This document shows, piece by piece, positions 16,141-47,939 of a stretch of 64,000 nt of DNA. Where the stretch lies: contig NZ_JAJQQZ010000001.1 of NCBI RefSeq assembly GCF_021729015.1, forward strand, positions 558,001 to 622,000, given 5' to 3'. Origin of the DNA: Halobacterium rubrum (GTDB lineage Archaea; Halobacteriota; Halobacteria; Halobacteriales; Halobacteriaceae). The notes under the pieces are model-generated. The model was given only the letters and a program-made list of their open reading frames with translations, ran no database searches and was not told the DNA's origin. The position numbers and the translations under genes are program-made. Every line of letters begins with the position of its first letter. Within the stretch, counting starts at the first letter, position 1.

Positions 16141-16206
16141 CCCGGCGGCTCCCCCTCGCCGGCGGCGGTGCAGTACGCTTTTTGCGTTCGGGCACCCGGT
16201 ACGCCC

Positions 16207-17379
16207 ATGACTTCGGTTCGTCGCCTCGGAGCGGCCGCCACCGTCGCCCTGACGGGCGCGGCGGTCGTCGCCGTGATGGCCGTCCACGTCGCGACCGCGC
16301 AACCGCCGATGTCGGGCCTGCTGCTCGCGGGGTTCGGGAGCCTCGTCGGGCTGGCGCTCGTCGCTGCCGGTGTCGGACTCGTCTGGCTGGACGTCTCCCC
16401 CGAGCACGCGCTCCGCGTGGCAGGCTGGAACGTGCTGGGTGTCGTCGTCATCGGTGCGGCGCTCGCGCTGCTGTTCGCGTACCAGGGCGCCGTCGCGTCG
16501 GTACCTGCCGCACCCGTCTTCTCGGGGACGGTCGTGGTCGCCGTGAGCGCAGTCGCACACGTCCTCATCGGCATCAACGACGTGCGCCGCATCCGGGCGA
16601 CCGAGCTCGCCCGCCAGCGCCAGAAACTCGACGTGCTGTCCCGCGTGGTCCGCCACGACCTCCGGACGCTCGCCCAGCTCCTCTACAGCTACGCGAACCG
16701 CGTGGAGGCGGCCGCCGCCGGCGACGACGACCCGGAGGCGGTCGCAGCTGCCGTCCACGAGGCCGGTGCTGACCTCTCGAGCATCCACGAGCAGAGCAAG
16801 CTCGTGCAGGACCTCGTGGACGGCGAGGCAGCTACTCGCCGCGTCGACCTCGCGGCCCTCGCCGGGGACGTGGCAAGCGACGCCCGCGACGCACACCCGG
16901 ACGCCACGGTGACAGTCGGCGTGGCGGACGGCCTCGCCGTCGAGGCCGGTGACTACCTCCGGGACGCGCTCTCGGAACTGCTCGAGAACGCCGTGGAGCA
17001 CAGCTCCACGAGCCCTGACTCGCAGGCTCGTCAGGACGCTGTAGAGCACAGCTCCACGAGCCCTGACTCGCAAGCTCAGCAGGACGCCGCCGAGCACCAC
17101 GACGGAGAGGCTTCGGGGGTGACCGTCGAACTGTCGGCGGCCCGAGTCGCCGGCGGTGACAGGGTGGCGGTGTCGGTGAGCGACGACGGCTCCGGCATCC
17201 CGGCGGGCGAGCGCGCCGTCGTCACCGGCGAGACAGACGTCACGCAGCTCGACCACGCCAGCGGCCTCGGGCTCTGGGTCGTCCGGTGGGTCGCCGACGC
17301 CTACGGCGCCGACCTCTCGTTTTCCAGCAGCGAGGCCGGCGGCACCACGGTCACGCTCGAACTGCCGGCCGCGGCGTGA
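16207..17379 (+). CDS. Membrane sensor histidine kinase with N-box repeat insertion
   Basis: A 390-residue kinase with four N-terminal TM segments (about 8-30, 36-60, 70-95, 98-125) and no large outer sensor domain. The HisKA helix has VVRHDLRTL with phospho-acceptor His150. The HATPase domain has N-box ELLENAVEH (Asn261), G1 DDGSGIPAG and G2 GLGLWVVRW. Directly after Asn261 the protein carries two 16-residue units, each AVEHSSTSPDSQA plus three residues, followed by a third AAEH. This is an in-frame insertion of about 32 residues described separately. It is alone on its strand after secD. The cognate regulator is not evident. The ATG giving MTSVRRLG was chosen because the signal-like hydrophobic helix follows it. 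Confidence 0.9.
   Translation: MTSVRRLGAAATVALTGAAVVAVMAVHVATAQPPMSGLLLAGFGSLVGLALVAAGVGLVWLDVSPEHALRVAGWNVLGVVVIGAALALLFAYQGAVASVPAAPVFSGTVVVAVSAVAHVLIGINDVRRIRATELARQRQKLDVLSRVVRHDLRTLAQLLYSYANRVEAAAAGDDDPEAVAAAVHEAGADLSSIHEQSKLVQDLVDGEAATRRVDLAALAGDVASDARDAHPDATVTVGVADGLAVEAGDYLRDALSELLENAVEHSSTSPDSQARQDAVEHSSTSPDSQAQQDAAEHHDGEASGVTVELSAARVAGGDRVAVSVSDDGSGIPAGERAVVTGETDVTQLDHASGLGLWVVRWVADAYGADLSFSSSEAGGTTVTLELPAAA
16990..17085 (+). repeat. Two tandem 48-nt palindromic units inside a kinase N-box
   Basis: Unit 1 spans 16990-17037 and unit 2 spans 17038-17085. They differ at only four positions. Each encodes 16 residues, so the frame is kept. Unit 1 contains a perfect 8-bp hairpin (CGTGGAGC at 16992-16999, loop ACA, GCTCCACG at 17003-17010), followed by CCTGAC and GTCAGG arms. 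A third, partial AVEH-like start (GCCGCCGAGCAC) follows at 17086. Nearly the same block occurs in the kinase gene at 27238-28743. Confidence 0.9.
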
Positions 17380-27237: not shown

Positions 27238-28743
27238 TCACTCGAACTCGACGTCGGTGAACTCGAAGCGCGCACCGCCTTTCGGTCCGGTGGTGAGGTC
27301 GACGGTCCAGCCGTGGGCTTCGGCGATTCGTCTGACGATGGTGAGGCCGAAGCCGGTGCCGTCCGACGCCGACGTGTGACCGGGTTCGAACACCTGCTGG
27401 CGGTCGCCCTCGGGAATCCCGGAGCCGGTGTCTTCGACGTAGAGGCCGTGGTCGCCGACACGGCCGACGCGGACGGTCACGCCGGGGCCGCCGTGCTCTA
27501 CGGCGTTGTCGGACTGCCCTGCAGTCCGACTGGCTGTCGAACCGTGTTCGACAGCGTCCTGACGAGCCTGCGAGTCAGGGTTCGTGGAGCCATGCTCCAC
27601 GGCATTCCGGAAGAGGTTCTCGAAGACGTGCTGGAGCCGGCTGCGGTCGCCGTGGACGACGGCCTCGTCGGCGTCGTCCACGACCTCGATGCTGTCGTCG
27701 TCGCCCGTGGGGACGTGCTTCCAGCAGACGCCGAGCAGGTCCGCGAGCGCGACGGGTTCGGGGTCGGTGACGACCTGGCCCTGTCTGGCGAGTGTGAGGG
27801 TGTCGGAGACGATGTCGTCCATGCGGTCCAGCGCCGCCACAATGGGTGCGAGGTGGTCGCTGTCGCACTCCTCGCCGAGCAGTTCCGCCCGGCCCTGCGC
27901 GATGTTCAGCGGGTTCCGGATGTCGTGGGAGACCACGGACGCGAACTCGTCGAGCTGTTTGTTCCGGCTGCGGAGCTGGCGTTCCCGCTTGACGCGCTCG
28001 GTGACGTTCCGGGTGATGCCGACAATTTGGGAGACCTCGCCGTCCGCGAGGACGGGCGCGAGGTTCGTCTGCCAGAACCGCGCGCCGGTCTCGACGGGGA
28101 CTTCCTCCTGGTACGTGATGGATTCGCGGGCGTTCGCGCACCGGTGGTAGTTCGCCTGCAGTTTCGCGCCGAGGTCGTCGCCGAAGACCTCCATCGGGGT
28201 CTTCCCCTTGACTTCAGCAGTCGTGATGCCGGTCTGTTCCTCGTAGGTGACGTTCAGGCGCTCGAACCGGAACGTGTACCCCGAGCCGTCCGGCTCGACG
28301 TCGAGGAAGAAGATGCCGTCATCGACGGTCTCCAGCAGGGTCTCGTACTCCTCGGCGAGCTCCTGGTGGCGTCGCTCCCGGCGCTTCCGTTCGGAGATGT
28401 CGCGGCTGTTCACGAGGATGCCGTCGATGTCGGCCTCGTCGCCCGTTCGGTCCTGTAGCGTCGCCTCGATCCAGCACCAGGACCCGTCGGCGTGCCGGAA
28501 CCGCGTCTCGACTGTTTGCGTGCGGACGTCCTCGGACTGGAGTGCTTCGATGGCGTCGGCGACGGCAGCCCGGTCGTCGGGGTGCTGGTACTCGTAGCCG
28601 GTCTCACCGACGAGGTCCTCGGGGTCGTAGCCGAGTGTCCCCTGCACCGACGGACTCACGTAGGAGATGGTGCCACTGGAGTCGATGACCGTCGTGACGT
28701 CGGCTGATTCCTCGACGAGCGTCCGGTGCAGACCGCCGTCCAT
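27238..28743 (-). CDS. PAS-PAS histidine kinase with N-box repeat insertion
   Basis: A 501-residue soluble kinase. PAS domain 1 (about 1-120) opens with VEESADVTTVIDSSGTISYV and ends with a PAC-like RDISERKRRER. PAS domain 2 (about 130-255) has a PAC end RNVTERVKRER. HisKA has FASVVSHDIRNPLN with phospho-His near 272. The HATPase N-box has FRNAVEHGST (Asn380), with G1 VEDTGSGIPEG and G2 GTGFGLTIVRR. Between the first NAVEH and a third NAVEH sit 33 extra residues, described separately. It reads towards the tRNA and heads a cluster of signalling genes. A TATA box at about 28768-28775 places the start of a leaderless mRNA at the ATG. Confidence 0.92.
   Translation of the reverse strand: MDGGLHRTLVEESADVTTVIDSSGTISYVSPSVQGTLGYDPEDLVGETGYEYQHPDDRAAVADAIEALQSEDVRTQTVETRFRHADGSWCWIEATLQDRTGDEADIDGILVNSRDISERKRRERRHQELAEEYETLLETVDDGIFFLDVEPDGSGYTFRFERLNVTYEEQTGITTAEVKGKTPMEVFGDDLGAKLQANYHRCANARESITYQEEVPVETGARFWQTNLAPVLADGEVSQIVGITRNVTERVKRERQLRSRNKQLDEFASVVSHDIRNPLNIAQGRAELLGEECDSDHLAPIVAALDRMDDIVSDTLTLARQGQVVTDPEPVALADLLGVCWKHVPTGDDDSIEVVDDADEAVVHGDRSRLQHVFENLFRNAVEHGSTNPDSQARQDAVEHGSTASRTAGQSDNAVEHGGPGVTVRVGRVGDHGLYVEDTGSGIPEGDRQQVFEPGHTSASDGTGFGLTIVRRIAEAHGWTVDLTTGPKGGARFEFTDVEFE
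27493..27606 (-). repeat. Hairpin-built in-frame insert in kinase N-box
   Basis: Three NAVEH-coding copies are separated by hairpins: a perfect 8-bp stem (27583-27590 with 27594-27601, loop 3), CCTGAC/GTCAGG arms (27558-27563 with 27574-27579), a perfect 9-bp stem (27534-27542 with 27546-27554, loop 3) and a perfect 10-bp stem (27508-27517 with 27521-27530, loop 3). The segment 27552-27604 matches 16990-17042 in the other kinase at 50 of 53 positions by eye. Confidence 0.9.
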
Positions 28744-28767
28744 GCATCCCCGTAGGCAGCGATCCGG

Positions 28768-28775
28768 AATAAAAG
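28768..28775 (-). promoter_or_regulatory. TATA box for the PAS kinase gene
   Basis: On the minus strand this reads CTTTTATT, about 27 nt upstream of the ATG at 28743. Confidence 0.5.
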
Positions 28776-28810
28776 AGTGGCATACCCCGAGTGCGTCCGG
28801 TTCGAGTGGC

Positions 28811-29461
28811 TTATTCCGACGGGTCGAAGCGCCGCCAGTCGCGGTCGTGGCTGGGGAGGCCGGTGGTCCGGAGTTCCGGGCCGTCGCCGTCGTCGCGGAC
28901 GTCGATGCGGCCGGCGCAGAACTGCGCGAGCGTCGCGACCTCGCGCTCGTCGTGGTTCGTGGGGTCGACGAACAGGACGCCGAACCCGTCGACGCTGTCG
29001 ATACGGCCGACGAGCGTGTGCACGAACCGGGAGACGGTCTTGAGGTCGCTGAACGTCAGCAGCGTGGAGACCGAGTAGAGGCCGGTCCGGACGCGGTCGA
29101 CGTCGCTGTCGGCGAACGACCGGTGGAGGTCGGAGAACCGCATCCCGATGCCGGTGAGGTCGGTGGGACCGGCGACGGTGAGCAGGCGGGCGGGGACGCT
29201 GGGTTCGTCGTCGCTGACGCAGTCGATGATGGCGGCCTGGTCTTCGAAGACGGAGACGCCGGCGCGCTGGCAGTCCTCGACGACGCGGTCGGCGCTCTGG
29301 TTCGTGGTGACGACGATAGCGCCCTCGCCGTGGGGACCGGCGAGCATGCGGAGCGCGAGGCTGCGGGTGCCGGCGTGCGTGGGGCCGGCGACGAGCACCG
29401 TGGTGCCGGGGCGGATGTCGTCGACGGGGAGGCCGTCGAACGTGTAGTCGTCGTCACTCAC
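28811..29461 (-). CDS. RecA/KaiC-like protein with degenerate P-loop (DUF7504-like)
   Basis: A 216-residue protein starting at GTG (VSDDDYTFDGLPVDD). It looks like the haloarchaeal KaiC/RadA-like proteins found beside receivers. VLVAGPTHAGTRSL occupies the Walker A position but lacks the Lys, having Thr-Arg instead of Lys-Ser/Thr. The Walker B-like strand is GFGVLFVDPTNHDE. The remainder (TLLTFSDLKTVSRFVHTL) fits the fold. ATP hydrolysis is therefore doubtful, and a signalling or scaffold role is inferred. It overlaps the preceding receiver-GAF gene by 8 nt, so the two are translationally coupled. Confidence 0.75.
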   Translation of the reverse strand: MSDDDYTFDGLPVDDIRPGTTVLVAGPTHAGTRSLALRMLAGPHGEGAIVVTTNQSADRVVEDCQRAGVSVFEDQAAIIDCVSDDEPSVPARLLTVAGPTDLTGIGMRFSDLHRSFADSDVDRVRTGLYSVSTLLTFSDLKTVSRFVHTLVGRIDSVDGFGVLFVDPTNHDEREVATLAQFCAGRIDVRDDGDGPELRTTGLPSHDRDWRRFDPSE

Positions 29462-46751: not shown

Positions 46752-47939
46752 ATGAATTGGCAACGTTCGGCGGCTCGACTGCTCGTCGTGGTCGTCGTGT
46801 TGATGACAGTGACCGGCGCGTTCGTGCCGGCCGTCGCGGCGACAGCCGACGGCCCACCAGAGCCCCCGCAGCGGTACTTCGGTACCGTCTCGGACAGCGG
46901 CGGCTCGCCGGTCGGCGGCCTCACCGTGGAAGTGACGCAAAACGGTGACGTCGTCGCCGAGGACGTAACGGACAGCGACGGCTACTACGACCTGCAGGTG
47001 AACACGAGCGACGTGAACACGGACGAGCAGGTCACGATCGCCGTCCAGGAACAGACAAAGTCCCGCGACGTCAGCGTTGGTGGGTCGACGCAGGTCGACT
47101 TCACGGTCAGCACTGACACCGTCGCGGGCGGCTCCGAGGACCTCGACGAGAACGGTGACGCGACGGTGACGCTCGGTACGGACGAGGTCGACAACGTCGC
47201 CGTCGACCTCGAGAGCGGGACGACCGGGACCCTGAGCGTGCGCCAGACGTCGGGTCCGGCGGACGGTGCGCCCGAGCCCGATGGCGTCTCGGTCGCAGCG
47301 TACCTCGACATCGAGGCGCCCAGCGGGTCGTCCGGTTCGGTGACCGTGACGGTCACGCAGAGCGCACTCGACGACGCTGGCCTCGCCGTGGAGGACGCGA
47401 ACATCCTCCACTACACCGACGGCTCGTGGGACACCCTCGAGACGTCAGTTGTCGACGAGTCCGGCGACAACGTGGCGCTGCGTGCCGACGTCACCGAGTT
47501 CTCGCCGTTCGCCATCGCCGGCACGAGTGATACCGGCGGTGACGACGGTACCGGTGGTGACGGCGGCACCGGCGGTGACGACGGCACCGGTGGTGACGAC
47601 GGCACTGGCGGTGACGACGACGGTAGCAGCGATAACACTGGTGGTGCCGGCGGCGGTGGCGGTGGCGGTGGTAGTGATACCACCACCACGACCGCGACGC
47701 CGACCACTACGTCGACGCCGACGACGACGCAGCAGCCGACGGACACGACCACGCCGACGGATACGACCACGCCGACGGACACGGCCACGCCGACGACGAC
47801 GCAGCAGCCGACGGACACGACCACTCCCTCCGGACCGTCCGACGTCGATGACGGACCCGGACTCCTCTTCATCGGAGGCATCGCGGTGGTCCTGCTGGCA
47901 GTCGTCGGGACGGTGTACCTCGTGTACGTCCGCGAATAG
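46752..47939 (+). CDS. Membrane-anchored surface protein with Gly/Asp and Thr-rich stalk
   Basis: A 395-residue protein: signal peptide (MNWQRSAARLLVVVVVLMTV and then AFVPAVAA), a carboxypeptidase-regulatory-like domain (YFGTVSDSGGSPVGGLTVEV, about 38-100), a PGF-pre-PGF-like domain (SVTVTVTQSALDDAG to EFSPFAIAG, about 150-255), a GGDDGTGGD repeat linker, a Gly run, and a long Thr/Pro stalk (TTTQQPTDTTTPTDTTT). A C-terminal TM helix is followed by YVRE. This is the wall-spanning stalk design of haloarchaeal exoproteins. It follows the anchorless S-layer protein and could serve as its membrane attachment, by inference. Confidence 0.78.
   Translation: MNWQRSAARLLVVVVVLMTVTGAFVPAVAATADGPPEPPQRYFGTVSDSGGSPVGGLTVEVTQNGDVVAEDVTDSDGYYDLQVNTSDVNTDEQVTIAVQEQTKSRDVSVGGSTQVDFTVSTDTVAGGSEDLDENGDATVTLGTDEVDNVAVDLESGTTGTLSVRQTSGPADGAPEPDGVSVAAYLDIEAPSGSSGSVTVTVTQSALDDAGLAVEDANILHYTDGSWDTLETSVVDESGDNVALRADVTEFSPFAIAGTSDTGGDDGTGGDGGTGGDDGTGGDDGTGGDDDGSSDNTGGAGGGGGGGGSDTTTTTATPTTTSTPTTTQQPTDTTTPTDTTTPTDTATPTTTQQPTDTTTPSGPSDVDDGPGLLFIGGIAVVLLAVVGTVYLVYVRE

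Follow-up and report, generated by a model that had tools for sequence, protein, structure and literature searches.

Tandem units in a Halobacterium rubrum histidine kinase gene as probable copies of a haloarchaeal double-hairpin element

The analysed window is a stretch of 64,000 nucleotides of the Halobacterium rubrum genome (contig NZ_JAJQQZ010000001.1, positions 558,001 to 622,000 of the forward strand), and positions of features are given within it. A histidine kinase gene (16168..17379, +; HATPase_c, Pfam PF02518) carries an insertion composed of two in-frame tandem units of 48 nt, located at 16990..17037 (+; peptide AVEHSSTSPDSQARQD) and 17038..17085 (+; peptide AVEHSSTSPDSQAQQD). These score 75.4 and 60.5 bits, respectively, with R1, a covariance model of the unit whose E-values are rough. 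Each unit codes for the peptide AVEHSSTSPDSQA(R/Q)QD, and the array was also detected by Tandem Repeats Finder and a repeat finder. The earlier note on this sequence had described the two tandem units correctly, with four differences between them; our recount gives five mismatched positions over the 48 nt. It had also reported a perfect 8-bp stem with a 3-nt loop in unit 1, and this hairpin, here termed hairpin A, is indeed found at 16992..17010 (+; CGTGGAGC ACA GCTCCACG). In unit 2, the same stem contains one mismatch and one T-G pair. A second hairpin in each unit, termed hairpin B, had been overlooked; in unit 1 it occupies positions 17014..17035 (+; CCTGAC tcgcaggctc GTCAGG). DNA folding of the stretch gave a z-score of -2.4 relative to shuffles. 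Unit 2 is followed on its 3' side by GCC GCC GAG CAC CAC GAC, the beginning of which (GCC GCC GAG CAC; 17086..17097, +; GCCGCCGAGCAC) resembles a partial third copy and is the continuation of the host gene.

Orthologues of the window kinase were found in 13 other genomes of the family. Alignment with close homologues, which had been suggested as a way of defining the borders, gave empty orthologues and 96 nt extra in the window kinase. The insert is absent in all ten orthologues whose N-box was read out, and the remaining three have open frames of 358-359 codons, compared to 412 in the window kinase. The closest orthologue (79% identical) reads ENACEH-HDDG, versus ENAVEH-(32 residues)-HDGEAS in the window kinase, and its DNA has GCG TGC GAG CAC CAC GAC where the window kinase has the partial third copy, which is the end of the host N-box. 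Since orthologues in the family lack it, the insert is a recent, clean insertion of 96 nt. In the solved histidine kinase PrrB, N-box residue 63 is directly joined to the next strand at residue 64, and in the PDB alignment residues 281-316 of the window kinase are extra at this junction. This comparison places the insert in the loop that joins the N-box helix to the following strand, leaving the N-box unbroken. The N-box had been thought to be rebuilt at the far side of the insertion; instead, the Asn of the first copy stays in place as the N-box Asn, and the later copies begin with Asp and lie in the loop. Likewise, several placements of the insertion are equivalent, that directly behind the catalytic Asn being one of them, and the empty sites favour a border after AAC-GCC (Asn-Ala).

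A third 48-nt unit is present in the window at 27556..27603 (-; R1 73.5 bits), within a second histidine kinase (open frame about 27241-29055, -), and is followed by a variant unit (27524..27555, -) that has a different perfect spacer hairpin (GTCGGACTGC agg GCAGTCCGAC). Across the H. rubrum genome, the unit was found in four other kinases, including the one within the window. Their units are 92-96% identical to those of the window kinase, their proteins are 33-40% identical to it, and the DNA flanks of the units shared among the kinases of this genome are widely different. Kinase arrays reach eight N-box-type copies (locus L023), and arrays of identical units also exist (L013). Units in different genes of the same genome are 0.88 identical, compared to 0.80 between genomes (0 of 2000 label permutations, indicative only because related sequences are not independent). 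In seven kinase spacers, the position of hairpin B is taken by alternative hairpins that have no sequence similarity to it, for example GGACTGC..GCAGTCC, AGAACGC..GCGTTCT and TTCAGAACC..GGTTCTGAA, with stems of 9-10 bp in some units; other palindrome families may therefore use that slot. Elsewhere in the window, Tandem Repeats Finder detected two adjacent tandem arrays with units of 18 and 36 nt (47532-47824).

A protein search of 292 genomes of the class found the repeat in 169 genomes, representing 50 of 77 genera. The R1 model matched 101 of 145 Halobacteria genomes, in 43 of 58 genera, and the richest genome has 31 copies. Among genomes sampled across the phylum, it matched 9 of 19 Halobacteria genomes and had no match in about 100 genomes of other classes. 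We also used a hairpin B pattern (CCTGMYTCGCANRCTCRKCAGG), for which the backward reading gave no match in 194 genomes. In the 257-Gb GTDB collection this pattern matched 54 stretches, 48 of which are haloarchaeal (Natrinema, Haloarcula, Halosimplex, Halorientalis, Natronorubrum, Natrialba, Haloterrigena, Halovivax and others); the six bacterial matches have no unit context and look like chance. The search of haloarchaeal genomes that the earlier note had proposed thus finds the unit both in other kinases and in unrelated genes. In the open-access literature we found no earlier description of the element; its peptide appears in no paper there, the papers listed as matching its loop sequence look unrelated, and the RepRanger paper contains no word starting with "halo".

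The 48 haloarchaeal loci comprise 25 kinases, 12 rhodanese/metallo-beta-lactamase proteins, 5 corrin (CbiE-like) methylases, 4 glutamyl-tRNA synthetases (GluRS), one unknown protein and one locus without unit context. The names GluRS and CbiE-like methylase are putative, as read from the sequences; Pfam assigned the corrin methylase to TP_methylase. All true copies of the form captured by the hairpin B pattern share one frame, A-x-E-x-x-S-x-S-P-x-S-x-x-x-Q-D. The rhodanese/metallo-beta-lactamase protein has the unit at three sites, two of which are filled in one genome (L102), and a Halostagnicola corrin methylase contains three tandem units. Using R1 and Pfam, we identified further single hosts, namely MutL, a VLRF1-type release factor, a Rieske protein, a PglZ protein and an AAA protein, as well as hosts with the element in reverse orientation, CobN, isoleucyl-tRNA synthetase (IleRS) and a glutamine amidotransferase. 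Empty sites in relatives were found for four genes, the window kinase, GluRS, the corrin methylase and IleRS. The corrin methylase site is filled in 7 and empty in 22 of 29 congeners, with insertions of exactly 48 nt. The GluRS site has the unit in only 2 of 40 family genomes, and a sister genome, 92% identical, has the site empty. Within the genus to which the window belongs, IleRS has a 57-nt reversed insertion in two genomes, and probably in a third, and uninterrupted matches in the other ten. The copies that we call recent are insertions of exact multiples of 48 nt, or of 57 nt in the reversed case.

The order of parts in the element is a border (N)AC-GCC, hairpin A (8 bp, 3-nt loop), the segment GAGCCC, hairpin B (6 bp, conserved 10-nt loop TCGCAnnCTC) and a border GGAC-GCC. 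With its two hairpins the element measures 48 nt (or 51, 57), and it contains no reading frame for a transposase. In GluRS the host codon (AAC GCC) is retained in the left flank and the GAC GCC at the right end belongs to the element, from which we place the border after (N)AC-GCC, as a reading of that alignment; a methylase locus (L300) fits this border less well, since it is the right copy that resembles the host at this locus and not the left one. Among 39 sites, base -1 is C in all 39 and the right flank is mostly GCC. The start of the element matches its own right flank better than the flanks of other sites (0 of 2000 shuffles, again indicative only). ACGCC stands on both sides of the element, where a target duplication is indistinguishable from a recreated target, and the homology shared at the new sites amounts to only about 5-12 nt. 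The inserted length is a multiple of three nucleotides in 16 of 16 coding and 16 of 23 intergenic insertions, coding or intergenic status at these sites having been assigned by eye.

The pairing of the stems was assessed against the peptide that they encode. Third codon bases were examined in 156 protein-selected copies: those of Val and Ser (V3:S3) are paired in 132, compared to 63 expected if independent, and those of Glu and Gly in 131, compared to 77 expected; most possible stems occur among these copies. In 100 distinct 16-codon units, hairpin A has on average 7.50 of 8 pairs versus 5.24 ± 0.14 under synonymous shuffling with the codon usage of the genes, and hairpin B has 5.38 of 6 pairs versus 3.47 ± 0.07 under synonymous shuffling. 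A harsher null, in which codons were permuted within positions, gave 6.44 for hairpin A and 4.74 for hairpin B. Neither of these sets, nor that of the intergenic form described below, was selected on pairing. Counts from the model-built alignment are biased, because that alignment was chosen partly by pairing, and were not used as proof. The amino acids of hairpin B vary with the stem (PDSQARQ, PASQAQQ, PRSQAPE), and VEHGST is replaced by GRRSAS, DGASSV or EGQSPS with the hairpins intact. At five loci (L049, L051, L052, L072 and L074) hairpin A has lost the whole peptide yet stays a hairpin. The stems covary strongly and the loops and ends are fixed. The conserved feature of the unit is its nucleic-acid structure.

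Other candidates were rejected. An ancient protein loop is ruled out by the empty orthologues, a slippage repeat private to one kinase by the copies in other genes, chance pairing from codon bias by the two codon null models, and a known RNA family by an Rfam search of 4227 families, which returned only a neighbouring tRNA and chance matches. The earlier note had allowed that the insert would be simply an old protein loop if all orthologues carried the same residues with normal codon divergence and no conserved hairpin; this fails on the empty orthologues, on pairing far above the synonymous-codon expectation, and on the occurrence of the unit in unrelated genes with empty sites.

Weaker matches, 48-57 nt in length, are for the most part extragenic and contain an 11-nt loop (TCGCTNNGCTC). 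When its arms were left unconstrained, a pattern for this form (GAGCCCTNNNTCGCNNNGCTCNNNAGGAC) found 69 sites in 35 of 145 genomes and, read backwards, had no match among the 145 genomes. The free arms (NNN) are fully complementary in 60 of the 69 sites, with ten different stems; about one such site would be expected by chance. The two forms have loop ends, the segments GAGCCCT and AGGAC, and borders in common, and we infer from this that the coding unit probably descends from, or shares ancestry with, this intergenic form. At three loci, elements of the intergenic type overlap the first 6-8 nt of tRNA genes on the opposite strand (L182 1511-1567, L357 1474-1529 and L361 1501-1566), as if the tRNA 5' end had served as the target; these genes encode tRNA-Thr CGT twice (different families) and tRNA-Gly CCC. 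At three further loci (L353, L355 and L356, near 1480), elements lie directly 3' of a tRNA-like T-arm (GGTTCGAATCC / GGTTCGACTCC) between tRNA-Val and tRNA-Phe, where no tRNA is predicted; this T-arm perhaps belongs to an intron-containing tRNA. Within the window's genus, seven intergenic copies share longer flanks (AAAGCTAC ... GCTAAAA), and therefore a longer intergenic repeat family exists.

Among known systems, the element is best regarded as a protein-coding palindromic family analogous to the Rickettsia palindromic elements (RPE), a sequence relation not being expected. The likeness in principle proposed in the earlier note holds, through in-frame copies in unrelated genes and empty sites. 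RPE and the Wolbachia protein-coding palindromes are found in frame in many unrelated, often conserved genes, as well as between genes and in RNA genes, with the host protein tolerating the extra peptide (PMC2229807, PMC10969869). In Halobacteria, similarly, the palindromic repeat stands in frame in several unrelated protein genes, orthologues without it exist for four of them, and the related form with the 11-nt loop occurs outside coding genes. However, RPE are single long stem-loops of about 105-150 nt, with a 12-bp terminal inverted repeat that the haloarchaeal element lacks, and reside in intracellular bacteria, whereas the haloarchaeal elements are 48-nt double hairpins of free-living archaea that form tandem arrays, recreate a short fixed target and show strong stem covariation. 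Coding palindromic repeats fused into protein genes are also reported from an archaeon of a different lineage, Methanocaldococcus jannaschii (Suyama et al. 2005, as cited in PMC2229807 and PMC2996958). The PATEs of Haloquadratum walsbyi are transposase-free, have near-terminal palindromes and a short targeting sequence, and can be as short as 52 bp (PMC3119063). Like the PATE/IS605 class, the haloarchaeal element has palindromes near both ends and no terminal inverted repeats; homogeneous PATEs, in contrast, are conserved along their whole length, whereas the element has fixed loops and ends, variable stems and many in-frame gene copies. REP/BIME sequences resemble it as short hairpin repeats with intergenic copies, but REPs seldom overlap coding regions (PMC12306157), whereas coding copies of the element are frequent and no GTAG-type tag was seen in it. 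REPs are mainly extragenic and the top-scoring class of the element is almost all coding, although its weaker intergenic form would fit. Its ends, GCC... and ...GAC, do not form the terminal inverted repeat of a MITE. The double-hairpin elements of Allomyces (Paquin et al. 2000, as cited in PMC2800124) are also described as very short, mobile-like and made of two hairpins but, unlike the haloarchaeal element, are mitochondrial.

In our interpretation, held with a probability of about three in four (0.74), the window kinase has gained a haloarchaeal double-hairpin element in two tandem copies, and this element spreads by hairpin-guided insertion or template switching. The outcome itself is observed: exact insertion, tandem growth, spread to unrelated genes, retained pairing and fixed borders. 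The earlier suggestion that a palindromic sequence here is mobile or duplicates itself, and recreates its target, is supported, with insertions read as presence or absence between species. Mobilisation is proposed from that same pattern, and its most likely route would be hairpin-guided insertion 3' of (N)ACGCC. All comparisons are between species, among which no strain-level new insertion was seen, and no transposase was found linked to the element. As with IS605-type or REP/PATE elements, a single-stranded hairpin form may be cut and then joined immediately 3' of a target resembling ACGCC; alternatively, the element may be copied in by template switching at this short homology. Since the element ends in GACGCC and so restores its own target, further copies would land in register, or would arise by slippage, and tandem arrays would follow. 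Coding copies would persist only where a polar loop is tolerated and the inserted length is divisible by three. The kinase N-box loop (DNA GAGAACGCCGTSGAR) would be the commonest tolerant site and hence a hot spot, since it has codons that match the target and since kinases, a very large family in haloarchaea, are so numerous. Only paired variants would multiply, the stems staying paired because the folded shape is recognised or promotes template switching. Against this reading, the variability of the stems greatly exceeds that of known IS605 or REP hairpins, and tandem growth with homogenisation within kinases could be plain slippage and gene conversion.

One arm of the main explanation can be stated more sharply, as a terminal-only IS605-type derivative, a PATE of the Haloquadratum kind, on which a Y1 transposase would act in trans. 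The two near-terminal palindromes, the absence of terminal inverted repeats, a length near that of the 52-bp terminal-only PATEs and a short fixed target on the 5' side make this possible, although the hypervariable stems and the ambiguous presence of a target duplication turn the odds somewhat against it, and no complete IS605-type element bearing such ends came up in searches aimed at the unit itself. In the other arm, hairpins would stall the replication fork and the unit would be inserted by a template switch at short homology, with no dedicated enzyme. This would account for the exact unit length, the direct repeats found at both borders, the tandem arrays and the hairpins whose two arms have both become perfect; repeat-mediated events at short repeats have been reported in haloarchaea (PMC3119063). 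Insertion in both orientations, at sites with very short homology and with very precise borders, speaks against it, and we consider it rather unlikely. An origin with no transposition at all, by slippage duplication in one kinase followed by gene conversion between paralogous kinases in polyploid cells, is improbable: kinases predominate among the hosts (25 of 48 haloarchaeal loci), identical-unit arrays occur and units are homogenised within genomes, but the unit also resides in non-kinase genes (GluRS, rhodanese/metallo-beta-lactamase, corrin methylase, MutL, IleRS), the flanks of shared units in the kinases of this genome differ widely, and new sites share very little homology. Selection on the protein, with the peptide VEHGST-SPDSQARQD as a functional linker or regulatory loop, would suit the conserved frame and peptide and the polar loops of halophilic proteins, but is refuted in the main by the covariation, amino acids changing freely where base pairs are kept and synonymous-site pairing far exceeding expectation, and, with a different peptide coded by the reversed form in IleRS and with intergenic forms existing, is most improbable.

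Until now, protein-coding palindromic elements were a peculiarity of Rickettsia and Wolbachia, apart from a single report in archaea. The haloarchaeal double-hairpin family spans at least 43 genera of free-living archaea, some of them growable and genetically tractable, with clean within-genus empty sites and tRNA synthetases among its hosts; element movement, retention of frame and the overriding of protein sequence by structure become testable. As a caution, the repeat-rich loops of haloarchaeal kinases should not be taken for conserved protein motifs. More tentatively, at a little under even odds, the family may be a class-wide selfish element that is recognised by its shape and not its sequence, with freely drifting paired stems, fixed loops and ends and a self-recreating target that allows tandem growth, and that lives mainly inside conserved proteins. 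If this is true, nucleic-acid structure would dictate the amino acids that a host protein carries.
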